Positions 5,044 through 28,242 of a stretch of 29,490 nucleotides of DNA are shown piece after piece. Under the pieces are notes generated by a model that did no database searches, was not told the DNA's origin, and saw only the letters and a list, made by a program, of their open reading frames with translations. Made by a program: the position numbers and the translations under genes. The DNA lies in the IMG/VR virus record IMGVR_UViG_3300025413_000094, positions 1 through 29,490 of that record; one strand, written 5' to 3'. The DNA is from a virus. How positions within the stretch are numbered: position 1 is the first letter of the stretch; each line of letters opens with the position of its first letter.

Positions 5044-6228
5044 TTAGAGATGTTTCTTTAGACCTGCAGCTGAGGCGTGGATCTCTTTCTGCATTTCTTC
5101 CTTACCTGCAGGCTTTAGACCTTGGTACTTGGCAAGAAGAGTTGATGCATGAGCACCTGTTAGCTTTGTGACTTCACCATTCTTGTGCTTGAATTCATTA
5201 GCACCACGCATGTCGTGCTTGATTCGTTCTAGCTGCTGAATTGGATGTTGACGAGGCTCGTCTTGTTCTGCTGCACCCATTTCCTGTTTGCGCTTCCAAG
5301 CTTCTGAACCTTCCTTTGGAGGACGACCACGGCCTTCTTCAAGATCAGCCATTAGAGCTTCAATGCGGTCAAGTTCTTCCTGAGTAAGTTCTACTGATTC
5401 ATCAAGATGTTTACGGATACTGTCAGCATGCTTATTAGCATCACCACGACCTGTACCAATAGCATCAATTAGATTACCAATGTGTGCATGAACTGGGTGT
5501 GTTTTATCTGGGAACTTTTTACGAGCTTTATCAATAAGTTTACCTGCTTCATCTCCGAAGATTTCATCTAATTCTACTTCTTCCTTGGTGAGCTTATCAG
5601 TAGCTTTGCCAATACCAGTATAACGCTTTACTACATTTTTAAAGTGTGTCTTTTCACGCTTTGATGCATCATTATTAATGATATCTTTTACCTTTTGGCG
5701 AACATCAGCAGGAGTACCTGTAGTTGCATGATCAATAGCATGAGCAGCGTTACGATCCGCACGAGCCTTTTCAACTTCAGCGTGGCTCTGAGCCATTGAA
5801 TTAGATGCTTTCTTGATGTATGAACCTAGTGTCTTCTTTGATAGTTCATCAAGCTGTTCGAACTCTTCTGGAAGTTCCTTGAACTGACCCTTCTTAAGAG
5901 TGTACTTCATATTTTCGAATACAATATGAATATCACCGTTACGACGGTCACGATGTGTGACTTCAGCTAGACCACCATGAATGTCTGGTGTGTGTGGTGA
6001 ATGAATCACAACACGATCGATACCTTCAGCACGAAGACGACGGAAGTCATCTGAATCAAGCTTACCGTTATGATTCTTGTCGATCTTCTTCTGCTTTGCA
6101 GTTAAAGTCTTAGCTGCTTCACCCAAATCTTCGAGTGGAGTACCAACCGATGAATTACCAGCCATAAGCTGTTGAACATCTCTGATCAAGTTTTTGCTTA
6201 GGCTAGTTAAAAAGCTATTATTCTTCAT
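5044..6228 (-). CDS. EF-hand-containing internal/structural protein, unknown function
   Basis: 394 residues, strongly charged and helical. Residues 50-61 form a complete EF-hand calcium loop (DKNHNGKLDSDD, with D50, N52, N54, K56 and the final D61). Later it has KEEVELDEIFGD, a linker of the same type seen in the large protein at 6719-9307, and a Lys/Arg/Glu-rich C-terminus with GRGRPPKEGS. I read it as a head-associated or packaged protein that may be processed at L-x-E sites by the prohead protease. The function is unknown. The upstream gap has an AATAAATA box and AGGAG. Confidence 0.65.
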   Translation of the reverse strand: MKNNSFLTSLSKNLIRDVQQLMAGNSSVGTPLEDLGEAAKTLTAKQKKIDKNHNGKLDSDDFRRLRAEGIDRVVIHSPHTPDIHGGLAEVTHRDRRNGDIHIVFENMKYTLKKGQFKELPEEFEQLDELSKKTLGSYIKKASNSMAQSHAEVEKARADRNAAHAIDHATTGTPADVRQKVKDIINNDASKREKTHFKNVVKRYTGIGKATDKLTKEEVELDEIFGDEAGKLIDKARKKFPDKTHPVHAHIGNLIDAIGTGRGDANKHADSIRKHLDESVELTQEELDRIEALMADLEEGRGRPPKEGSEAWKRKQEMGAAEQDEPRQHPIQQLERIKHDMRGANEFKHKNGEVTKLTGAHASTLLAKYQGLKPAGKEEMQKEIHASAAGLKKHL

Positions 6229-6718: not shown

Positions 6719-9307
6719 TCAATAACTGTCTGTGTTGCCAAGAGTTTGATCGGTGTCACCATTATGGACATTACCACTCTTGATGATTTTACGGTTTAAC
6801 TTACGAAGAACTGATTTGGCAGGAATGACATTGCCATAAGCATCAAGATGTGCTGGAACAATGACTGGTGCTTTTTCTGCTGAAGTCACATCTTCTTCGA
6901 TTTCATCTAGTACTGATGGATGATGTGCAAAACCACCTTGCATCTTGATTCCAAGATCTGCTGCTGTAAATGTCTGACCAATACCAGCAGCATAAGCAAT
7001 GTTGAATGCTTCGTCAAGATTCTGACCTGGTGTAGCTTTCTTTAGAATTTTGACCAACGAATCTGTACCGATTAGACGATTCTCTGGCTTGTTTGGATCT
7101 ACACCATCTGATGCTTCAAGAACATTCTTTGAGATTTCTTGTTCTCTGTTAGCAGCCGAAGCAGGATCAGTAGGCTTTTTAGTACGTTCAACATTCTGAA
7201 TCTTGTTACGGGCAGTCTGACCGCGAGCAACACCCTGAACTTTAACACGTGAATCAGTATCTTCCTTCAGACCTTTCTTATGCATTACTACATATCGTTC
7301 ATCGTTTGAAAGCATATCCTTGAGTTCTTTGTTGTATTTACCTTGATCTCGCTTTGGGCTTTTTTCTTTATCTGCCTCAACTGAATTATAATCTTTATCT
7401 GAACTGTAATGTTCATCTTCAGTTGGCTTCATATGAAAAGCTTGTTTAGTCTTAGGATCGTATCCATGCACATGAATTCGTGGGTGTTTGGCTGCTTTAT
7501 CCCAAACTCTTCTAGCACCAGCTGACTGATTCTTTGATGAAAGAATCTTATCATGCTTTAGAACTAGATGTTGGTAAAGATGATGTGCACCAGGTGAATG
7601 TTCATTACCCACTAGTGTATCAACTTCTTCAGCATTATTTTTCTTAGGCCAAGTTGTTAAAACTGTATTCACTTCTTTTGTTTCTGGGTGAGTAACTCTA
7701 TAGATATGCTTATCGGCTTGTACTTTGAAATGAACTTCATGTCCGCCCGGTAGAGTACCGATCATCTTATGACCAGATCCTAGTTTTTTACCTAGAGTTC
7801 TACTCTTGAGTTTATCTGATTTAACAATATCGTTCTGAAAAACTTCATCTAGTTCTGTTTCTTCGTTCTGATGCTTGAAGTACTGAACTTGCTTTTCACG
7901 TTTTTCAGCACCTTCTCTGGTAGGATAAGTACCGAGATTCTTACCAGTTGACTTTGAAACTAGACGATAACCGCCCTTTACTTTAACAATGTGTTCATCT
8001 AGCTCAGTTTCTTCATTTACATAAGTTTCGTTGTTGTGATAGAAACTAGCACGGCTGCGCTTATTTTGACCCTTTCGAGTCCAACCCATTCTACTAAAGC
8101 CATTCTCATGCTTATATTTTCTATCTAGATGGTCTTCAAGATCTTTCTTTGAAATGTTATGATTTGACCAATCTTTAATATGCTGATGAATATCACCAAG
8201 TAAAGCACCCTTTACTTCTTTACCAGCAGATGTTTCATATCTGCCGACCATTGCATTTTTAATGTGATGATCTAGTGAATGATTAGCTTCCTTTGATTTT
8301 TTCTGAGCCTGGCGCATTGTATCAACTCTTGCACCAATATCATTACCAGGAAAATATGATTCATTTGTTACACCGAATGCATGTTTTTCAGCTGCCTTCT
8401 TGAATGGTAGACCGAAGTACTTAACTCGACCATGCTTGTTAGAAGCTTTCCATGCGGTTTGTTTAGTTTGACCTTTTTCAATTTGTGGCTTTACATAAGG
8501 TGTATTCTTTGATTCATCAACTGATTCTTGAGCCGCTTTTAGTGCTGCATCAGTTGGGGCGCCTTTTGACCCCGGTTTGCGCATGTGTTCACCTGAACCC
8601 GCTTTAATTCTTTCTTGCTTAGCGTGAATGTTATCCCACAGACCACGCTTTTCGTGCAAATCTGCATCTTCATTAAAATAAGTCTTACCTTGATTGATGT
8701 ATGAGTTTACACGAGCAAATGCATACTGTGTAGAAGATACATTAAGATCTTCGGTCCAGGCATCAAGACCACGATTATAGACTTCACCTAGGATTTCTAG
8801 ATCGATATCTGACTTATCTGCTTTCTTAACAAGACCTCTAAACTCTGAGCTATTGACATCAAGATCTTCACCGAACTTGCCATACTGAATAATAGGTGAA
8901 CCTTTAATATTAGTACCGCCTTTTGCATTACCTGCTGCTTCACCTTTAGAATTCTTAGTTGGTACTTTCTTACCACTTGAAACAATAGGATTATCTGAAC
9001 GTTCACCAGTTGACCCACTATTGCCAGGTGCTGAATCACCAAAATATTCAACGAACATAGAGTTTACAGAATTAGATTCAGTGACAAGTGTTTTACTGAT
9101 TCTATTCTTGTTGATAATTCTTTGAGCTACTTCGTTAATTAGATCTTCTTTCCTAAGTATAACTTTATCTACATCAACACTTTCATCTAGTTGTTCCTGA
9201 AGCTTTGAACGAACAATTTGTCTTGCTTGTGCATAAGCCGCATTCTTTAGGCGCTGTTGTTCATCTAATTTGTGTCTGTAGTTTTCAATAATTGTTCTTG
9301 TGCTCAT
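6719..9307 (-). CDS. Large modular head-associated protein, possible processed polyprotein
   Basis: I start at the ATG at 9305-9307 (MSTRTIIENYRHKL), which has AGAGGA upstream. The frame stays open to 9403 but without a good ribosome site. The 862-residue product is a string of modules: a helical N-terminus, a G/S/N-rich linker, a GLWDNIHAKQERIKAG...RKPGSKGAPT module common in T4-like phage proteins, and a short GGYRLVSKSTGKNLGTYP module. A domain near 7440-7860 bears QSAGARRVWDKAAKHPRIHVHGY, weakly like GNAT-type phage proteins. Modules are separated by EETELDE linkers. L-x-E is the T4 gp21 prohead-protease consensus, so cleavage into pieces is plausible. Function unknown. Confidence 0.7.
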   Translation of the reverse strand: MSTRTIIENYRHKLDEQQRLKNAAYAQARQIVRSKLQEQLDESVDVDKVILRKEDLINEVAQRIINKNRISKTLVTESNSVNSMFVEYFGDSAPGNSGSTGERSDNPIVSSGKKVPTKNSKGEAAGNAKGGTNIKGSPIIQYGKFGEDLDVNSSEFRGLVKKADKSDIDLEILGEVYNRGLDAWTEDLNVSSTQYAFARVNSYINQGKTYFNEDADLHEKRGLWDNIHAKQERIKAGSGEHMRKPGSKGAPTDAALKAAQESVDESKNTPYVKPQIEKGQTKQTAWKASNKHGRVKYFGLPFKKAAEKHAFGVTNESYFPGNDIGARVDTMRQAQKKSKEANHSLDHHIKNAMVGRYETSAGKEVKGALLGDIHQHIKDWSNHNISKKDLEDHLDRKYKHENGFSRMGWTRKGQNKRSRASFYHNNETYVNEETELDEHIVKVKGGYRLVSKSTGKNLGTYPTREGAEKREKQVQYFKHQNEETELDEVFQNDIVKSDKLKSRTLGKKLGSGHKMIGTLPGGHEVHFKVQADKHIYRVTHPETKEVNTVLTTWPKKNNAEEVDTLVGNEHSPGAHHLYQHLVLKHDKILSSKNQSAGARRVWDKAAKHPRIHVHGYDPKTKQAFHMKPTEDEHYSSDKDYNSVEADKEKSPKRDQGKYNKELKDMLSNDERYVVMHKKGLKEDTDSRVKVQGVARGQTARNKIQNVERTKKPTDPASAANREQEISKNVLEASDGVDPNKPENRLIGTDSLVKILKKATPGQNLDEAFNIAYAAGIGQTFTAADLGIKMQGGFAHHPSVLDEIEEDVTSAEKAPVIVPAHLDAYGNVIPAKSVLRKLNRKIIKSGNVHNGDTDQTLGNTDSY

Positions 9308-9344
9308 GGCGTCCTCTAATACTAAAATAGCCCCTCGATCGAAA

Positions 9345-9464
9345 TCAAGAGACTCGTGAATACTTTTGGTTAAGGCTAAGAAAACTTGTTTCTCCGACAA
9401 CATAGTCTAGCTTGGGAGAAGAAACGTGAGTGTCGCGGGTTGGTACTACTTTTATTCTTTCCAT
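9345..9464 (-). CDS. Small ORF, 39 aa, upstream of the large modular protein
   Basis: ATG at 9462-9464 with AAGGGA seven bases upstream, downstream of the late-promoter box at 9527-9534. The product begins MERIKVVPTRDTHVS and ends NQKYSRVS. It ends just before the start of the 6719-9307 gene. I do not recognise it. The good ribosome site and promoter placement are the only support. It could be a short leader peptide or part of an untranslated leader. Confidence 0.35.
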   Translation of the reverse strand: MERIKVVPTRDTHVSSPKLDYVVGETSFLSLNQKYSRVS

Positions 9465-9639: not shown

Positions 9640-10728
9640 TTAAACAATAGCAGTGACAAATGTGTTATATGTATTTCCATCTAAACAAAAGTACTTTACA
9701 TACATTAAATTGTGTGTACTTAAGTAAAATGACTGACCACCAGTTGCTTGTGTTCCTGATCTTAGACTATGATTGAACTGTTGAGTACCACCAATATTAT
9801 TAAAAATGAATAATTCAATTGATCTACCAGCACCTGAACTTAGATTCTGAATGTTAGCAGTCAATGTTCCAGCATTAGTATGCACATGAATAATATTATC
9901 AGAAGCAAAGTCAATTAACACAGTATTCGATATAGCGGCATCAATTCGTACATTTGGTGCTTTGTATGCAGTACTTTGTGTGGTGTTATCAGAGAACGTA
10001 ATTGTTTTGTTATTAGCCATAACCATGCTTCTGCCAATAACAAGGTTGGCAGAAGCCACAGGACTACCAAGTTTGAAATTGGCTGAATCATTTGATGAAT
10101 CAATAGTATCACCATAGATTTCTATATCACCAACTCTAATTCCATTGGCACTACCACTAACGACCAACACACTATTAGATACAGTAAGTGTAGCGGTATT
10201 AGATGTAACAGCATCTACAAGACCAAATGATTTACCAGAAGCAAGAATAGTATTACGATTCAGCACCAGATTGGCAGTCGAATCGGTTAAGCCGATCTGA
10301 ATATCAACTCCACCAGTGGCACTCTCAATAGTATTATTAACAAACTTTAATTGTCCAACCTGAAGTTGATTTGCACCATCAATTTGAAGAACACCATTAT
10401 TAACTGTCAAGGCAGCATTTAATGCAGCATTGCTTTGATCTTCAATGTATAGTGTGCCCGGACCAATATGGACAGATGACCATCTATTGGATGTATTACC
10501 CAATGAATAGATATTATCAGTTGCTGGAATAATATTAGTATTCACTGCTAAAAGATCAACTTGGTTATAGATATTAATATTAGCGCCCATAATATTCCCT
10601 AATGTGACTGGCAATGGATTTAAATTACTTACAGGATTGCCATCAACTGTTGCTATCATTCCTAGTTCATATAGTGTCTTACTATTCTGCTCGACCTTCT
10701 TTTGTTGGTCGATTCTCCACTGTGCCAT
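9640..10728 (-). CDS. Fibre-like virion protein
   Basis: 362 residues, rich in N, T, S, A, V, I and G, with a repeated beta-strand pattern. Near residue 75 it has DNIYSLGNTSNRWSSVHIG, a motif common in tail-fibre and long-fibre proteins. The rest reads as repeating units (TLTVSNSVLVV, NLVLNRNTILA, NLVIGRSMVMANN) ending in a more aromatic C-terminus. The repeats suggest a trimeric beta-helical shaft. The C-terminal tip (SFYLSTHNLMYVKYF) may be a receptor- or glycan-facing part. It starts one base into the upstream CTS protein's stop. Confidence 0.7.
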   Translation of the reverse strand: MAQWRIDQQKKVEQNSKTLYELGMIATVDGNPVSNLNPLPVTLGNIMGANINIYNQVDLLAVNTNIIPATDNIYSLGNTSNRWSSVHIGPGTLYIEDQSNAALNAALTVNNGVLQIDGANQLQVGQLKFVNNTIESATGGVDIQIGLTDSTANLVLNRNTILASGKSFGLVDAVTSNTATLTVSNSVLVVSGSANGIRVGDIEIYGDTIDSSNDSANFKLGSPVASANLVIGRSMVMANNKTITFSDNTTQSTAYKAPNVRIDAAISNTVLIDFASDNIIHVHTNAGTLTANIQNLSSGAGRSIELFIFNNIGGTQQFNHSLRSGTQATGGQSFYLSTHNLMYVKYFCLDGNTYNTFVTAIV

Positions 10729-11042
10729 TATTTAGTACCTTTACCTCTTGTCGCTCTACCTGCTCTACCTCGAGTTCCTAACTGATCTGATTTCGCATCG
10801 GCACTATCAAGTGTAGTCTGATCATCGTCTCCATCAATATCATCATGCATACCAGTATGATAATCTACCATACTTTGGACGGTAGAAGAAACTTTAGATT
10901 GGTCAGCGATATTATTGGTAGCATAGTTGCTATAATCACCACCAGGAATACCAGTGACATTACCAACACCTCTAATACCTTCACCGCCACCAAGTGAATT
11001 GGTAGGTGCATCTTCACTTAACCAAGCTTTAAAAGTTTTCAT
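10728..11042 (-). CDS. CTS-leader protein, Asp/Gly-rich, unknown
   Basis: Start at the ATG at 11040-11042, overlapping the previous stop (ATGA). The 104-residue product starts MKTFKAWLSEDAPTN, a T4-type capsid-targeting leader with a predicted cut after SE. The rest is low complexity: a Gly-rich segment (GGGEGIRGVGNVTGIPGG), an acidic patch (HDDIDGDDDQ) and a basic Arg/Gly tail (GRAGRATRGKGTK). Such a basic tail could bind DNA in the head. No enzyme motif is seen. Confidence 0.65.
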   Translation of the reverse strand: MKTFKAWLSEDAPTNSLGGGEGIRGVGNVTGIPGGDYSNYATNNIADQSKVSSTVQSMVDYHTGMHDDIDGDDDQTTLDSADAKSDQLGTRGRAGRATRGKGTK

Positions 11043-11317
11043 GATTCTACCTTTGCTCCAGCACGCCATTGCTTACAGGACCAGTAACGAGCTTTAGTCT
11101 TTGGTCCGGGATTGGTGTCACAGTGGTGTCTAGCTCTAAATGACTTACGGCGTGCAGGATCGTCACGCTTAATTTCCATATTTGGATCACCAAAGCGGAC
11201 AGTCTTGATATTACCTGTCTCGGGATTCTTCACATCAACAGCAAACTTTTTAGGGCCGCCTGGTGTACGATGAATCTTACCAAGACTTTCTTCTATAAAC
11301 TGATTTAAAGTTTTCAT
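11039..11317 (-). CDS. CTS-leader conserved phage protein (TPGGPKKFAV family)
   Basis: 92 residues. The leader MKTLNQFIEES is followed by a core I recognise as widespread in T4-type phages: RTPGGPKKFAVDVKN, RFGDPNMEIKRDDPARRKSFRARHHCD and GPKTKARYWSCKQWR. Conserved Cys/His residues (HHCD, SC) might bind a metal. The protein is very basic, consistent with DNA association. It lies in the packaged-protein operon, with its start overlapping the stop of the 11314-12882 gene. The biochemical function is not known to me. Confidence 0.75.
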   Translation of the reverse strand: MKTLNQFIEESLGKIHRTPGGPKKFAVDVKNPETGNIKTVRFGDPNMEIKRDDPARRKSFRARHHCDTNPGPKTKARYWSCKQWRAGAKVES

Positions 11318-12882
11318 CTTTTGACCTTAATTTTACCTGCCATTAGACCTACGCGAGTGCGATCCATTAGGCTTTTAGCTTCTTTATCAGAAAAATTTGG
11401 ACCTACGTGTTTCTTAAATGTATTTATGTCACCTTCAGCCGCGGCTTGACGCATTTTTGTTCCAGATAGACCATGTGAACGATTTTCATCTTTAGGTAGA
11501 TGCACATGGACTTCGTCGAATTTATGACCTTGAAGTTCTGGAATCTTTCCATTCTCTACTGAATGTTTGAGACCTTCTGCAAACTTCTGGCGATCATGAC
11601 CGAAGTGAAGATGAAGAATCTTTTTACCAGTAGCAGGCATACTTGCATAAGCCTTAGCAATAGTAATGCCTGGAGACTTTACAGTCTGGAAATCAACTTT
11701 ACCCCCAGACTGCTTATTGGCAATATCTTCACGTTCTTTATCTGAGAATGCATCTGACTTACCAGACAGTCCAATAAACTTCTTGCCATGTGGTGCTGCA
11801 TCCATTGAGCCACCAATATCCGTGTGGTGACCCATGTGTGGAAATGGTGAAGCGCCTAGATATGAGACATGGACGTGATGTTCTTCTTCTTCCTTGACTG
11901 GAACGCAGTTAGGAACTTCCTTACCATTCTTTTTCTTTTTACCAATCATCTCATATCCCTTCCAGCAGGGATCATTCTTCATGGCTTCATTCACTGTATC
12001 ATGCACACCAAGATGCTTACGCATGTGAGCTAGAGCAGGACCATTATCAAGTCCTTTTATCTTAGCTGTCGCACCTTTGAATTTATCGTAGATTGCCTGA
12101 TGCTGTTCTTTTGGAATGTGCTTCTTAATGAGTTGTGTGACACCCTGGAATGAATGGATCTTATCGTGATCGGCATTAGCACCGAATAGCTTCTTGGAAA
12201 TTTCATGTGGGTGCTGAACACCTGGATCATTCTCATCGGTACGTGAACGAAGTCCGTGTGTAATCGAGAACTTATGAGTATCACCACCGACAGCATTTAG
12301 AAGAATCTTGTGATGAGCACCTTTAATGCCTGCCTTGGTGTCTTCCCAGTTTGAGCCGTGAAGGAATCTTGAAGCTTCTGAACCTGGATGATGAACACCC
12401 TGGAAGTCGAACTGGTGATGTTCACCATTCTCATGCTTCATTACAGCAGAGATTTCATTACCGTGTTTCTTAGTTCCGACAACTGTATACTTACCAAACT
12501 TTTTACCTGCGGTAAGATGATCAGCAAGTTTTTCTTTATGCTCTGGTGTCACCTGAGTGTCAACGTCACCGATCATTGGCTTGTGCTTAGCAAACTCGGC
12601 GTGAGTTACATGATGTCCCATAAGGTCATGAGTTGACCCAGTATAAGCAGTAGCATCATGGAGACGTTGGTGGTCTTGCCCGAAGAGATGCTCACCATGT
12701 TCTTTATGGAAAGTATCCGCCATGGAAGTAAGTGCATGGTGAATATCTGAACGAACCTGGTGTCTAGTTCCAGCAGTTACGGGAAATGGTGCAGCAGAAG
12801 TCTTCTCACCCTTAGGTTCATTAGGATTTGTTGGTACCGATATGTTACCACCTTCAGTGATAAACGATTTGAATCTTAGCAT
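11314..12882 (-). CDS. Two-domain nucleotidyltransferase-like protein with capsid-targeting leader
   Basis: 522 residues. The leader MLRFKSFITEGG resembles T4 internal-protein leaders. Domain 1 (about residues 40-300) has YTGSTHDLMG and KPMIGDVDTQV, a G-S ... D-x-D pattern as in pol-beta-type nucleotidyltransferases. Domain 2 (about 325-520) has PFPHMGHH (an HxGH motif), LHFGHDRQKF and HGLSGTKMRQAA, matching the HxGH and S-x-T-K-x-R signatures of cytidylyltransferase/NMNAT-type enzymes. The substrate is unknown. If packaged, it would enter the cell with the DNA. It is coupled to the ligase-like gene at 12882-13841. Confidence 0.7.
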   Translation of the reverse strand: MLRFKSFITEGGNISVPTNPNEPKGEKTSAAPFPVTAGTRHQVRSDIHHALTSMADTFHKEHGEHLFGQDHQRLHDATAYTGSTHDLMGHHVTHAEFAKHKPMIGDVDTQVTPEHKEKLADHLTAGKKFGKYTVVGTKKHGNEISAVMKHENGEHHQFDFQGVHHPGSEASRFLHGSNWEDTKAGIKGAHHKILLNAVGGDTHKFSITHGLRSRTDENDPGVQHPHEISKKLFGANADHDKIHSFQGVTQLIKKHIPKEQHQAIYDKFKGATAKIKGLDNGPALAHMRKHLGVHDTVNEAMKNDPCWKGYEMIGKKKKNGKEVPNCVPVKEEEEHHVHVSYLGASPFPHMGHHTDIGGSMDAAPHGKKFIGLSGKSDAFSDKEREDIANKQSGGKVDFQTVKSPGITIAKAYASMPATGKKILHLHFGHDRQKFAEGLKHSVENGKIPELQGHKFDEVHVHLPKDENRSHGLSGTKMRQAAAEGDINTFKKHVGPNFSDKEAKSLMDRTRVGLMAGKIKVKR

Positions 12883-13841
12883 TACTTTTTACTCCCGAAG
12901 CGACCACCCGCGGCTTTAGCTTGTTTGAATTGTTCTGATGTGATTTTGAAACGAGGTGCTGCCGGATTAGCACTAGATGGATGAACCACTAGACCTTCTG
13001 ATCCGCTACCCCACTTATTCTGAATACCAAGTTTACCAATGTGTGCAGATACCTTAGCATGAACACGCTTCTTGATATCATTAAACTTGTCAACTTCTGC
13101 CAACTTGGCTTCTTTATTCTTTGGTGTAGTACGTGAGTTGATAAGCTCGTGATTCAGACCATGGAATTGTTTTACTTCATCAGCAACATCGACATGGCCT
13201 GGTTTGTGGGCAATCTTGTCATCATCAAACGTAATCTTAGAATCGGAAAGATGCTTCTTAAAGTGTTCTGTATCGTGGCCTTGATTTTCAGGTAGTTTGG
13301 AATGAATCACAAACTTACCGAGACCGCTTGGCTTCTTATAGGAAGTGTGAACGAACTTGACCTCGCCTTTATGTTCACTAGGACGAGCAAGAGCATTGTT
13401 GAATGCTTCGCCTTTGACAACAACTTCTTTACCAGTCTTCTTATGTTCGGAAGCTAGATGAGCCTGAAGTGGTTTGTTAGCATGAAGTGCTGCATGGAAC
13501 TTTGCAAATGCTTCAGGTGCAGTAGGTTCGTAAGGCTTTCCAGTCTCTTGAGCTCTACGCTTAGCACGTTCGATGTGTCCTTGTGCAGTACGAATCTTTT
13601 CGTCACCAGATCCAGAATGCTGTGTATAGAAGCCATGCTCGTCATGACCCATCTTAAAGGTCTGACCGTCGGTCTTCTCAGTCACATCATTAATATGAAC
13701 TTTACCACCTTTGGTAAGATGATGAAACTGTTCGGTGGACAGCGAAGGAGTATCGTTACCCGCAGCAGTCTTAGTTGAGTAAAGATGAGGAAGCCCTTGA
13801 CGGATCGAAGCTTCAGTAATGAATGATTTAAAGTTTAGCAT
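12882..13841 (-). CDS. Ligase-like covalent nucleotidyltransferase with capsid-targeting leader
   Basis: 319 residues starting MLNFKSFITEAS, a capsid-targeting-like leader with expected cleavage after TE. Next comes VHINDVTEKTDGQTFKMG, where K56-T-D-G is motif I (KxDG) of ATP-dependent DNA/RNA ligases and capping enzymes, K56 being the candidate AMP-accepting lysine. Near the end, SEGLVVHP resembles motif IV (EGxV) and RFKITSEQFK motif V. The order and spacing fit the adenylylation domain, with no clear C-terminal OB domain. It may seal or adenylylate a nucleic acid or protein. The start overlaps the upstream stop (TAATG). Confidence 0.7.
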   Translation of the reverse strand: MLNFKSFITEASIRQGLPHLYSTKTAAGNDTPSLSTEQFHHLTKGGKVHINDVTEKTDGQTFKMGHDEHGFYTQHSGSGDEKIRTAQGHIERAKRRAQETGKPYEPTAPEAFAKFHAALHANKPLQAHLASEHKKTGKEVVVKGEAFNNALARPSEHKGEVKFVHTSYKKPSGLGKFVIHSKLPENQGHDTEHFKKHLSDSKITFDDDKIAHKPGHVDVADEVKQFHGLNHELINSRTTPKNKEAKLAEVDKFNDIKKRVHAKVSAHIGKLGIQNKWGSGSEGLVVHPSSANPAAPRFKITSEQFKQAKAAGGRFGSKK

Positions 13842-13993
13842 TAGTCGCCACCTCCAGATGAACCAGATTTGCCAGGAGGCAATCTACGAATTGTGCCGTC
13901 AGCCATTCTGATTGACACATTTTTAATCTTTTCAGGTTTACCTGTAGCATCTCTTACGGTAAGACCTTCTTTAAATTCTGCAAACGTTTTCAT
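13841..13993 (-). CDS. Small CTS-like protein, 50 aa
   Basis: A 50-residue protein beginning MKTFAEFKEGLTVRD, a leader related to its neighbours', followed by KNVSIRMADGTIRRLPPG and a G/S tail (GSSGGGD). ATG (13991-13993) overlaps the HAD gene stop (ATGA), and its stop overlaps the next start (TAATG). The beta-hairpin-like core (ADGTIRRLPPG) is seen in small head proteins. Function unknown. Confidence 0.65.
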   Translation of the reverse strand: MKTFAEFKEGLTVRDATGKPEKIKNVSIRMADGTIRRLPPGKSGSSGGGD

Positions 13994-14595
13994 CGTTTAA
14001 TAACCTTGGTAGTCCCGTCAGGCTTGACAAAGTAAGCTTCAAATGTAACACCTGGATATTCATCTGTAAGATCCAGAAATGCCAAAAGATTACTCATTGC
14101 ATCATCATATAGTCGGGCTCGAGTGTAATTTTTAGTATTTATATATTTCCGAAATATGACTTTTTTAGCTTCAGCACTAGAATCAATACCTAGATTACCT
14201 GCACGTTCTACATGCATTTCATCGATAGGAATTCCATGATCTCGGAAAGTCTGAAGAAATAGTTCTTTATCATCAAAATCCGCTCGAGCAGTACAAATAA
14301 TGGCTCGTGAATGAGGATTATTCTTGGCTTTAACTACAGCTTTAGCCTTTTCGATCATTCGGACTACTGGGACAGAAGTTAAACGAAAAACTTCGGCGGA
14401 TCGAAATTCGCCGAAGTCGTAGGTTTCCCCATGTTCACGCTGATATGTGTTGAATTCTTGGTTGTTAAGTTTTCGTATCAACTTTCCCTCTTTCATCACA
14501 TTGACTTTTGCAGTCGTATGGAAGAGAGTCTCGTCAATGTCGAAAATCGTAAGTGTACCAGTGCCTTCAAATTCTTTAAATCGTTCATCTACCAT
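13990..14595 (-). CDS. HAD-superfamily phosphatase-like protein
   Basis: 201 residues with all HAD motifs: motif I FDIDETLF (D19, D21), motif II T102 in IICTARAD, motif III Lys near residue 144 (SAEAKKVIF), and motif IV RLYDDAMSN (D164, D165). The cap region is small, as in polynucleotide-phosphatase-type HADs such as the T4 Pnkp phosphatase half, but no kinase domain is attached. Substrate unknown; nucleic-acid end repair would fit the ligase-like neighbour. The near-consensus promoter upstream would place the transcript start at about the ATG, so the mRNA may be leaderless. Confidence 0.8.
   Translation of the reverse strand: MVDERFKEFEGTGTLTIFDIDETLFHTTAKVNVMKEGKLIRKLNNQEFNTYQREHGETYDFGEFRSAEVFRLTSVPVVRMIEKAKAVVKAKNNPHSRAIICTARADFDDKELFLQTFRDHGIPIDEMHVERAGNLGIDSSAEAKKVIFRKYINTKNYTRARLYDDAMSNLLAFLDLTDEYPGVTFEAYFVKPDGTTKVIKR
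14136..14143 (-). promoter_or_regulatory. Possible intragenic late promoter TATAAATA
   Basis: A perfect late box on the minus strand inside the HAD gene, about 145 bases before the run of capsid-targeting-leader genes (13993-10728). Those genes should be needed late. It could also be chance coding sequence, since it falls inside codons. Confidence 0.4.
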
Positions 14596-25727: not shown

Positions 25728-26288
25728 TCAATCTTCGTCGAGTTCTTCGTAAATTGATTCTGAATCATCTTCATCTGAAACCAAAGTACTATTACTTACT
25801 AGGAACTTGTTTTCAACAAATCGATTGAATGAAGGGGATTCTAGTATTGGATTCCAAAACTCAGATGTATTAGTATCTTTTTCACGGAAGCTCTTGTCAG
25901 AAATCTCACCTGTTTCCATATCAACTTTCTGATACCAACCATTCTTAGGCTTGATTACGTGACCAGATTCAAGAGCTAGATCAAGTAGACCTGACCACTT
26001 GTTAATACCACCTGCGAACTTAACAACAAATGGGAACTTAGACTTTTCCTTCACGAAACGAGACTTCTCGATGTTAATTGTAAAGTTATAACCAGCAAGT
26101 TGATCCTTACCGTCAATCTTTTCCTTTTCCTGAGCCTTACCGATAATGAAGACCTGCATAGCAGAATACATACCACCAGTATTGTGAGTTACTACTCCAT
26201 TTTCTAAGATATAATGCTCAGCTTCCATTACCGAAATATCATATACAGGTCTTTTACCTACATGTGTAATACTTTTAACAGTTTTCAT
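25728..26288 (-). CDS. uvsX: UvsX C-terminal cistron: C-intein fused to the C-extein
   Basis: 186 residues. The first 36 are a C-intein (MKTVKSITHVGKRPVYDISV ... VVTHN), with the terminal His-Asn of intein block G. The C-extein starts with T37 (TGGMYSAMQVFIIGK) and continues through UvsX sequence (NFTINIEKSRFVKEKSKFP, GLLDLALESGHVIKPKNGWY) to an acidic tail. It joins residue 210 of the N-terminal cistron to restore a GG-TGG-MYSA segment, equivalent to the T4 UvsX region GGGTGVMYSA. AAAGGA within the end of the endonuclease gene serves as ribosome site, and the ATG overlaps that gene by 14 bases. Confidence 0.92.
   Translation of the reverse strand: MKTVKSITHVGKRPVYDISVMEAEHYILENGVVTHNTGGMYSAMQVFIIGKAQEKEKIDGKDQLAGYNFTINIEKSRFVKEKSKFPFVVKFAGGINKWSGLLDLALESGHVIKPKNGWYQKVDMETGEISDKSFREKDTNTSEFWNPILESPSFNRFVENKFLVSNSTLVSDEDDSESIYEELDED
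26181..26288 (-). other. Split intein, C-terminal fragment (36 aa)
   Basis: Intein blocks F (VYDISVMEAEHYILENG) and G (VVTHN, followed by T as +1 nucleophile). Together with the N-fragment (27331-27612) this makes a 130-residue endonuclease-free intein. Confidence 0.9.
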
Positions 26289-27294
26289 TTTTAATTTCCT
26301 TTACTAAATTAGTGATAGTGTCTATTTTATTCTTATTGTATTCAGATTCCCAGATAACAAAATATCTGAATCCTAATGATTCAATGAAATTTTTCTTTAT
26401 CTTATCATTTTCATTATTTTCGGTGTGCCAATAGTTGCCATGAAATTCAACACAAATCATATATGTTAAATCAATATAATCATATTTTCTATATCCAACA
26501 GCTGGGATATACTTTCCAAATTCAGAAGACCCAAGATATAGTTTCGATTCTGGAAAGAATAAAGATAAAGAATGGCAAAATTCATCCGCAATCTTCGATC
26601 TGAAAATAGTATTTGAATATCTATTTGATAGATATTCTTCAAATAATTCAACATAGTTTTGATCTTCGTAATTTTTAGACCAATATTCAATATTTAAAGG
26701 ATTGAACGTCTTGAGTTCATCTTTCGTGTATTTTAATGTAGATTTTCTACTATTTGATTTCTGTTTTTCACTGACCAATTCAACTGCTTCATTTAAAGTA
26801 AATCCTTTATTAATCCAAAAATTTACATTCCAACAAGAAACAGTACCATTACCAAGTTTTAACTTTCTATGGAATTCTTTACCACTTTCGGATTGAAATT
26901 TTGAAACTTTTTTAATAGCTTCTTCTTTACTCAATCCTCTAGATTCCCAATATAGATTAGATCTTGGTGAATTTGTTTTTTGGATTTCAGATACTTTATT
27001 ATTGGCGTATTCTTCCGACCACCCTCTAGAAATCCAATATTTAGTAGTTCGTATTGATCCACCTGGTTTATTATCTGGATTTAGAAGTAATGCCATTTGC
27101 TCTTTGTACTTAATTGAAGCTTTTATTTCTGAACCTAAAGATTCAATCATCGTTATTATCTTAGGGTTATCATAGTTAATATCTTTTAAATAATAAGAAA
27201 TTATTAAAATCTTATCTTCAAAGCTAAGATAACCCTTTGATAAATCAATATTAGGAAAAAGCTTATTGTAATTTTTTATTAGCAGTTTATTCAT
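26275..27294 (-). CDS. Vsr-like homing endonuclease inserted inside the split intein
   Basis: 339 residues from the ATG at 27292-27294. A start 18 bases upstream would put the Shine-Dalgarno inside the gene. Residues 86-178 hold three repeats of the pattern YW-x-S-RG-x-S-x-E-x-A-x-x-x-VS (KYWISRGWSEEYA, LYWESRGLSKEEA, NFWINKGFTLNEA), which look like DNA-recognition modules. The C-terminus is Vsr-like: KYDYIDL, VEFHGNYWH (282-290) and FVIWESEYN (312-320). Vsr-like homing endonucleases are known from fractured phage genes. It presumably cuts intein-free uvsX alleles to spread the element. It has the late-promoter plus hairpin module. Confidence 0.88.
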   Translation of the reverse strand: MNKLLIKNYNKLFPNIDLSKGYLSFEDKILIISYYLKDINYDNPKIITMIESLGSEIKASIKYKEQMALLLNPDNKPGGSIRTTKYWISRGWSEEYANNKVSEIQKTNSPRSNLYWESRGLSKEEAIKKVSKFQSESGKEFHRKLKLGNGTVSCWNVNFWINKGFTLNEAVELVSEKQKSNSRKSTLKYTKDELKTFNPLNIEYWSKNYEDQNYVELFEEYLSNRYSNTIFRSKIADEFCHSLSLFFPESKLYLGSSEFGKYIPAVGYRKYDYIDLTYMICVEFHGNYWHTENNENDKIKKNFIESLGFRYFVIWESEYNKNKIDTITNLVKEIKNENC

Positions 27295-27318
27295 AGTTAT
27301 GCCTCCTGACATAACTAT
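27293..27318 (-). promoter_or_regulatory. RBS-sequestering hairpin at the start of the intein endonuclease
   Basis: Minus-strand RNA AUAGUUAUG / CAUAACUAU (9 bp; arms 27310-27318 and 27293-27301) has the loop UCAGGAGG, which is the Shine-Dalgarno. The start codon begins in the 3' arm. The first three bases of the 5' arm are the end of the TATAAATA box. Confidence 0.78.
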
Positions 27319-27323
27319 TTATA
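27316..27323 (-). promoter_or_regulatory. T4-type late promoter TATAAATA overlapping a hairpin
   Basis: Perfect late box between the stop of the UvsX N-terminal cistron and the endonuclease gene. The predicted late transcript would begin near 27309, inside the hairpin. It would give late RNA encoding the endonuclease and the UvsX C-half. Confidence 0.78.
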
Positions 27324-27327
27324 TGGA

Positions 27328-28242
27328 TTATGAATTTGAAATCAATTTAGTTTCGGGTAGAAGATCTTTCGCTTCAATCCAATTCATATCTTCTGATAGA
27401 AATCTGTGTTTATCAGAACACACTACTTTATAACCATCATCAAACTCTATTTCATAACATTCTGGTTCACCAATTTCAAGTGTTTCAGGGTCCCATGTCG
27501 CAGATACAGATTTGTTACCTAGTAGCGTTTTTACAGAATCACCATCAAGAATATCTTCAATTGATTTTACAGTACCGTCTGACATTTGAATCATTGTTCC
27601 TGCTTCAAGACAACCGCCAGACATGATTGCCTTACTGAACATTTCCATAGTCTGGTAAGTGTGGTTGACTGCGATGCAAGGAATATCCTTGGTAGTCAAG
27701 TGAGGAGTGACGATACGCCAGAGTGACTTCATCACCTTAGCACGAGTCATATCTGCTGCGGCATTACCATTTAGAGCGTCCTCAGCTTCTTTCTTGGAAG
27801 CCAAATTACCGACAGAGTCGATAAAGAAGATCACCTTATCACCACGCTTAATTTCGTCTAGGCGCTTAGCGATGTCAAACTTAAGATGTTCTAGATGTTC
27901 GATTGGTACGTGAACAATACGACTTGGGTCAAGACCATTTGACTTGATGTAGTCGGGAGTAATACCAAACTCTGAATCGTAGAAGATGCAGATTGAATCT
28001 TTGTACTTCTTCATGTAAGCCTTGACCAAAACAAGACCCAGAAGTGATTTAAAGTGTTTGGAAGGACCAGCAAGGAATGTGAGTCCTGAAATAAGACCGC
28101 TTTTTAGCTTACCACCCAAAGCAAGATTGATAATAGGAATCTCTGTTGGGGATTGGTCTTTGTCATTAAAGAGTGCTGATTCATCAAGAGTTACTGACTT
28201 GATTGAACCTGCTTTAAGCATACGTTGTAATAGATCACTCAT
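27328..28242 (-). CDS. uvsX: UvsX N-terminal cistron: N-extein fused to the N-intein
   Basis: 304 residues. 1-210 are UvsX recombinase: Walker A FLAGPSKHFKS (57-66), the Walker B strand VIFFIDS and PCIAVNHTYQTMEMFSKAIMSGG. At residue 211 an N-intein starts (CLEAGTMIQMSDGTVKSIED), with block B VVCSDKHRFLS, and the frame stops at ISNS. UvsX is the T4 RecA-like strand-exchange protein needed for recombination-dependent replication. Because this cistron stops before loop 2 and the C-domain, active UvsX needs trans-splicing with the 25728-26288 product. Its leader holds AAAGGA and a hairpin (28268-28288). Confidence 0.93.
   Translation of the reverse strand: MSDLLQRMLKAGSIKSVTLDESALFNDKDQSPTEIPIINLALGGKLKSGLISGLTFLAGPSKHFKSLLGLVLVKAYMKKYKDSICIFYDSEFGITPDYIKSNGLDPSRIVHVPIEHLEHLKFDIAKRLDEIKRGDKVIFFIDSVGNLASKKEAEDALNGNAAADMTRAKVMKSLWRIVTPHLTTKDIPCIAVNHTYQTMEMFSKAIMSGGCLEAGTMIQMSDGTVKSIEDILDGDSVKTLLGNKSVSATWDPETLEIGEPECYEIEFDDGYKVVCSDKHRFLSEDMNWIEAKDLLPETKLISNS
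27331..27612 (-). other. Split intein, N-terminal fragment (94 aa)
   Basis: Starts with Cys (block A CLEAGTMIQMSDG) directly after UvsX SGG and contains block B (CSDKHRF, like the ICSEEH of the gp41-1 intein). It ends at the stop after ETKLISNS. There is no endonuclease domain inside the intein itself. Confidence 0.9.

Follow-up and report, generated by a model that had tools for sequence, protein, structure and literature searches.

Why do neighbouring genes on one strand of a viral DNA begin with nearly the same ten residues? The question is raised by the DNA that we analysed as the window, i.e., the whole stretch of 29,490 bases of virus record IMGVR_UViG_3300025413_000094 (genes called as greedy longest open-reading-frame choices), where the initial annotation had pointed out six genes with N-termini resembling the capsid-targeting leaders of phage T4 internal proteins. 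The gene content shows the window to be part of a T4-like phage genome, with a gp41-like helicase (PF03796) and the UvsX C-terminal domain (PF21134) as markers in profile searches, besides a divergent family B polymerase match and a primase match. We consider it highly probable that these leaders are T4-type capsid-targeting propeptides, predicted for this phage, by analogy with T4, to serve both targeting and cleavage by the gp21 protease. Under the proposed mechanism, the cargo proteins would be made late, the aromatic residues at positions 4 and 7 would bind the prohead core, gp21 would cut after Glu-10 (Ile/Leu-x-Glu) and free the mature protein inside the head, and the mature proteins would travel with the DNA and be delivered at infection. 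Packaging by means of the leader and gp21 is the best-supported of these steps, and we infer that the proteins of this phage are expressed late, cleaved, packaged and, from T4, injected.

All six N-termini are present in the window, each preceded by a Shine-Dalgarno-like stretch and an ATG, and five of them fit the T4-type pattern ^M..[FYLIVM]..[FWLY][ILVM].E used to scan it. These five, encoded on the minus strand, belong to a 319-residue RNA-ligase-fold protein (12882-13841; MLNFKSFITE, codons 13812-13841), a 522-residue two-domain nucleotidyltransferase (11314-12882; MLRFKSFITE, codons 12853-12882), a 92-residue DUF5754-like protein (11039-11317; MKTLNQFIEE, codons 11288-11317), a 104-residue Gly-rich protein (10728-11042; MKTFKAWLSE followed by DAPTNS, codons 11013-11042), and an 85-residue protein inside a holin/spanin-like cluster (2579-2836; MKQFKEFVSE). 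The sixth, MKTFAEFKEG of a 50-residue protein (13841-13993, minus strand), retains the targeting positions and falls outside the pattern, with Lys at position 8 and Glu at 9; these cleavage positions rule it out as a strict leader member, and the claim of six leader genes is thus reduced to five. The five leaders share the form M..[F/L]..[F/W][I/L/V].E, with F or L at position 4 and F or W at position 7 in all of them, and Ile or Leu at position 8 in four of the five, the 85-residue protein having Val. The pattern matches 5 of the 44 called genes (starting at 2579, 10728, 11039, 11314 and 12882) where its rate in the interior of the same proteins would predict 0.10; with the N-terminal residues shuffled 300 times, the mean was 0.04 matches and the maximum 1. 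The corresponding p=6e-8 is optimistic because the pattern was chosen after the window had been seen, so that the independent evidence comes from the relatives.

The relatives of the 319- and 522-residue proteins were taken among the matches listed, with 16 loci used and repeats of the same contigs left out, and this scope holds for the alignments of both families throughout. A leader is present in 28 of 29 sequences (16 of the 319-residue family and 13 of the 522-residue family), with Vibrio phage Va1 as the exception. When two rows with identical leaders are dropped, 26 distinct leaders are left, having Glu at P1 in 26/26, Ile or Leu at P3 in 25/26 (one Phe), an aromatic residue at P4 in 22/26, and Phe at P7 in 20/26; the targeting positions 4 and 7 are weaker in L207, L002, and CP220. 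Most leaders are 10 residues long, the others having 11, 13, 25 or, if an upstream start is taken, 21, and the cleavage triad adjoins the conserved mature start whatever the length; in the 319-residue family, all 16 aligned homologues end the leader in x-Glu beside the same mature start. According to PMC9026906, mutations in T4 assign residues 4 and 7 to targeting and residues 8 and 10 to processing, with gp21 cutting after L/I-x-E, and the conserved leader residues in the relatives are exactly those mapped in T4 (4, 7, 8, and 10). The small proteins carry the leader in related contigs as well: homologues of the 104-residue protein begin with MKTFCQWIKE/SLPTNS in G001 and MKNFKSWLAE/TS in G002 (a slash marking the predicted cut), those of the 85-residue protein with MKQFKDFISE in G001 and MENFDDFIIE in G004, and those of the 50-residue protein with MKTFAEFKEE in G001 and a good leader, MKTLKQFMSE, in G002.

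Could such a resemblance be a by-product of start-codon composition, with A-rich codons giving Lys, Thr, and Phe, or of the shared ancestry of neighbouring genes? The adjacent MLNFKSFITE and MLRFKSFITE are nearly identical, as this explanation would have it; we nevertheless find it hardly credible, given that the codons of the conserved leader residues vary synonymously and the leaders sit on unrelated folds and far apart. The other leader positions vary, and the alignments indicate that the leader is under protein-level selection. A genome scan also speaks against composition or ancestry, since four phages without gp21 gave 1 leader match in 254 genes (0.39 expected), whereas 11 T4-type named phages gave 27 in sum against 7.2 expected, and matches are enriched in the window and in its relatives G001, G002, and G004. 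The scan is imperfect in sensitivity and specificity: it misses T4 ipI, which has a longer propeptide, and Alt, and one of its four T4 matches is gp24, with ipII and ipIII among the others. In T4 itself, gp61.1 (NC_000866 18966-19130, L062; listed as hypothetical) begins with MKTFKEFIKE, a full capsid-targeting-like leader.

The protease gp21 (PF03420) is encoded by 11 of 11 T4-type named phages vs. 0 of 4 podo- and siphophages, and by 4 of 4 further cyanophages, or 15 of 15 T4-type named phages in total. Among the relative contigs, 3 of 11 have gp21, namely, G002 (truncated by the contig end), G007, and G011, and gp23 is over the cut-off on the same three; the ligase homologue of G002 is 75% identical to the 319-residue protein of the window. 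The cleavage sites predicted for gp23, placed where T4 would lead one to expect them, resemble the leaders, as seen in LLSE/ALPTNNT of G002, FLSE/AAPTNST of Melnitz, and FLTE/TGPTNS of C48C1 compared with WLSE/DAPTNS of the window's 104-residue protein.

Three natural experiments bear on the leader. The Va1 homologue of the 522-residue protein starts with M-GGN exactly at the predicted cleavage point of the others, the start being preceded by a ribosome-binding stretch and an in-frame stop, and gp21 is present in Va1 despite this leaderless homologue. Query residue 11 is the first one aligned in all six Vibrio matches to the 522-residue protein, and residue 7 in all fifteen Campylobacter matches; being near relatives, these count as one event. 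In L203, the 522-residue protein is split into two genes, each with its own leader (MKSFKQFITE and MISFKHFINE). A DUF6267 protein carries the leader in C48C1, Melnitz-3, and G011, and its P-SSM2 counterpart starts with M-KNTHIEHPED, one residue past the predicted C48C1 cut (FITE/QKNTHMTHIED). As side observations, the DUF6267 proteins (L108, L116, L041, and L211), from a Pfam family without assigned function, mostly have a KWDG-type motif, and the family has a leader in several phages, its gene often adjoining a cytidylyltransferase gene. Homology of the 319-residue family to DUF6267 (also a family of leader proteins, with a KWDG motif) was rejected, the profile comparison being not significant (probability 3.3%).

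These data also bear on whether the N-terminal segments might be a shared docking helix that stays uncut and serves a different phage process (the replisome or tail assembly, for instance). One leader gene lies in a lysis cluster (2579-2836), and the genes at 13841-13993 and 13990-14595 lack the cleavage residues, which would allow the aromatic part a separate role. Such a helix is very unlikely, however, to account for the leaders, since the x-Glu after Ile/Leu is kept while the length goes from 10 to 25, the Va1 and P-SSM2 starts coincide with the cleavage point, and the leader site resembles the gp23 sites.

Published virion mass spectrometry of related phages links the leader tag to packaging. 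Four reports list a cytidylyltransferase/NMNAT-like protein in purified virions of S-SM1 (PMC3037559), S-SCSM1 (PMC9602691), S-SZBM1 (PMC9146016), and S-CREM2 (PMC10665884), the last report also naming S-CBWM1 as a fifth phage with such a protein, outside the four whose N-termini we read from the genomes. All four of these detected enzymes carry the leader: MKKFSAFLNE/A in S-SM1, MKSFLQFLKE/A in S-SCSM1, MRFRQFIIE/A in S-SZBM1 (one residue shorter), and MKNFSSFLTE/A in S-CREM2. The S-CREM2 table holds 52 detected proteins, 50 of them in its gene list of 219 and 2 not. All 5 genes with a strict leader encode virion proteins, vs. 45 of 214 genes without one (5/50 vs. 0/169, p=5e-4, this being one of three patterns tried after an earlier S-CREM2 scan result had been seen), and their products are an S-adenosylmethionine (SAM) hydrolase, an APH/ChoK-like kinase, the cytidylyltransferase, and two hypothetical proteins. 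The virion Cas9 of the same phage (OR473000 7704-10313) has a leader-like RFASFMAE at residues 18-25. Since the detected gp156 matches the nucleotidyltransferase domain PF01909 (E 3.4e-4, just over the cut-off), both enzyme types of the window's 522-residue protein may occur in the S-CREM2 virion. The T4-type assignment made in the initial annotation is therefore upheld for five of its six genes, by the conservation of T4 residues 4, 7, 8, and 10, by gp21 together with gp23 in a close relative, by a homologue that starts at the predicted cut, and by the leader on enzymes detected in related virions.

Several points weigh on the other side. The phage of the window is known here from its genes alone, the virion proteomics come from related phages, and the mature N-termini after the leader Glu are predictions from sequence, also in the related virions. 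Neither gp21 nor gp23 was found in the 29.5-kb window or on the 141.8-kb relative contig G001, and a search for late promoters gave 6 matches to TATAAATA vs. 3.06 expected, a count reached by 9 of 100 shuffles, the match nearest to the operon lying inside the HAD gene described below. Some T4-type phages are leader-poor (HTVC008M 1, Syn9 1, Aeh1 1, and Va1 0), and G011 has few leaders. In S-CREM2, allowing Tyr at position 7 adds 2 undetected genes (p=0.008), a broad pattern gives 4/50 vs. 3/169 (p=0.049), and S-SCSM1_30 has a good leader, yet carries no virion-protein annotation. In two cyanophage proteome reports, the authors themselves consider that detected enzymes may be carry-over (PMC10665884, PMC9602691).

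What, then, would the leaders carry? The two large cargo proteins are enzymes rather than small internal proteins, a cargo type that the initial annotation had not identified. The model of the 319-residue protein has a pLDDT of 83.6 (residues 1-13 under 50); its top Foldseek match is TbREL1 (E 1.5e-4; TM-score 0.31), and VIA aligns it with Naegleria RNA ligase (Z 9.6, 186 residues, rmsd 3.7), T4 Rnl2 (Z 8.3), Rnl1 (7.7), and T4 DNA ligase (6.3), with RNA ligases occupying ranks 1-23 and entries named DNA ligase appearing from Z 7.0. The match is at the level of fold because the TM-scores are low. The KxDG motif is invariant (K56, D58, and G59 in 16 aligned rows), and the full-length rows also retain the EG and RFK motifs; we take EKTDG, EGLVV, and RFK to be motifs I, IV, and V, respectively. 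The protein thus shares fold and KxDG motif with Rnl2/Rnl5-type and Rnl1 RNA ligases, differing from them in having no sequence match in PDB or Pfam, and 1 of the 16 family members matches the RNA ligase family phrog_968 (E 0.044). It is most simply modelled as an RNA-ligase-fold enzyme, the preference for RNA over DNA resting on the fold.

The 522-residue protein (pLDDT 83.9, pTM 0.54) matches the cytidyltransferase families phrog_3041/395. Its N-terminal part (residues about 11-292) is of the pol-beta nucleotidyltransferase type, with Foldseek pairing it with Pol lambda (E about 1e-3) and D106, D108, and D159 kept in 9 of 9 rows, and its C-terminal domain (residues about 334-515, 11338-11883) is of the HIGH adenylyl/cytidylyltransferase type, with PPAT as a Foldseek match, a VIA Z of 11.7 to PPAT and NMNAT (tied) over 142-155 residues, and the motifs HMGHH and SGTKMR largely kept. 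The leader is under pLDDT 50 here too, and in both models it is of low confidence and detached from the fold. The linker (297-304) has a low pLDDT as well, and its Glu299, invariant in the alignments, is a possible second cut. Among side observations, the G001 copy (L001 10960-12786) has a sigma-70 region 4 match (E 6.1e-10; one of 13 aligned members, assigned to this copy by alignment) and an insert between its two enzyme domains, and L207 6342-8198 combines a leader and a HIGH domain with a P-loop kinase-like part after them, an order of domains similar to that of NadR. The six query proteins have no NCBIfam match, PDB gave no sequence match, and a PADLOC search gave no defence-family match.

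Just upstream of the leader genes, a 201-residue HAD phosphatase resembling polynucleotide kinase is encoded (13990-14595, minus strand; DIDETLF motif; polynucleotide-kinase family phrog_415, E 1.6e-7). Its N-terminus, MVDERFKEFEG, keeps the F..F spacing and has no Ile/Leu-x-Glu, and it was rejected as a member with a cleavable leader, there being no in-frame upstream start that supplies one; by analogy with T4 Asp-10 mutants, it may be targeted and remain uncut. Its homologues in G002, G007, G011, and L200-L202 have the full leader. Ligase, nucleotidyltransferase, and phosphatase would together be parts of an RNA-repair route; PMC9503650 describes phage ligases and nucleotidyltransferases that mend tRNAs after cutting by host defence, and also reports that myovirus heads contain packaged NAD/ADP-ribose enzymes.

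A different view of such cargo accepts targeting to the prohead and the gp21 cut and lets the proteins serve head assembly or DNA organisation, stay in the head, and never be delivered. Several leader proteins are small and of unknown function, and the core proteins of T4, after being targeted and cut, for the most part exit the head (PMC9026906). We judge this view unlikely, since the two large proteins keep enzyme motifs and folds not obviously needed in head assembly, and since T4 internal proteins and Alt are injected, according to PMC9391042 and PMC9503650. With delivery at infection as the preferred reading, the cargo could quite possibly, if short of probably, work at once in the cell, healing damage that host defence (such as tRNA cutting or NAD loss) does to RNA or nucleotide pools, and enzymes carried in the head would let repair begin before phage gene expression. 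More generally, we tentatively propose, with a little less than even confidence, that in T4-like phages, both of the lineage of the window and of the marine lineages, the leader is a portable general cargo tag, heads being loaded with ready-made enzymes (here the RNA-ligase-like protein and the nucleotidyltransferase pair, in relatives the end-healing HAD phosphatase, and elsewhere SAM hydrolase, kinase, and Cas9) that act at time zero, before phage gene expression, against tRNA cutting, NAD loss or restriction. Injected effectors would therefore be readable straight from sequence: if the tag works as in T4, the set of proteins that a T4-like phage injects becomes addressable in this way. It would also explain the repeated enzymes in cyanophage virion preparations, indistinguishable from contaminants to their authors, and it suggests that a pre-made kit for repairing RNA and nucleotides could be an early form of counter-defence.

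The known systems are close in parts. The T4 IPI-IPIII capsid-targeting sequence is likewise N-terminal, about 10 residues long, with aromatics at 4 and 7, Ile/Leu at 8, and Glu 10 as the cleavage point, whereas here the cargo includes large enzymes, the leader length is 10-25, and the phage is known from genes. T4 Alt, a packaged and injected ADP-ribosyltransferase, is also an enzyme delivered from the head (PMC5512222), but of a different class and with an N-terminus outside the leader pattern. The cyanophage virion proteins (T4-GC190, S-SCSM1 ORF91, S-SZBM1_140, and S-CREM2 ORF154) share the HIGH-type domain and the kind of leader, and differ in having no fusion to a pol-beta-type domain, judged by lengths and matches; the leader goes unmentioned in the consulted passages of their reports. 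T4 internal proteins and Alt are thus already known, and what is new is that an RNA-ligase-fold protein carries the leader, as do HIGH enzymes previously seen in virions, a link for which a literature search combining capsid-targeting sequence with cyanophage or with internal/propeptide found no report in the sources it covered, most subscription journals lying outside it.

As for the layout, the minus-strand order from 14595 to 10728 is HAD (201 residues), 50, 319, 522, 92, and 104 residues, followed by a gene with a tail-spike-domain match. The genes look co-translated because consecutive ones overlap by 1-4 bases, the upstream HAD gene included, and the five genes of 10728-13993 are indeed consecutive, as had been claimed. 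The 92-residue protein matches PF19058 (E 2.2e-4, below the cut-off) and phrog_7595 (E 1.6e-12). For the 104-residue gene, the mechanical open-reading-frame listing starts 9 codons upstream (11069), and the stretch AAGGT lies ahead of the ATG at 11042. Elsewhere in the window, the motif EE[VT]ELDE occurs three times in two large proteins (5044-6228 and 6719-9403; 0.03 expected by shuffling), possibly as internal gp21 sites. Finally, UvsX is broken across 25728-28242, with the N-part, which ends with an intein N-half, at 27328-28242, a restriction-endonuclease-fold open reading frame of its own at 26275-27312, and an intein C-half with the UvsX C-part at 25728-26288; the gene is fractured, its intein split, and a homing-endonuclease-like open reading frame lies between the halves.

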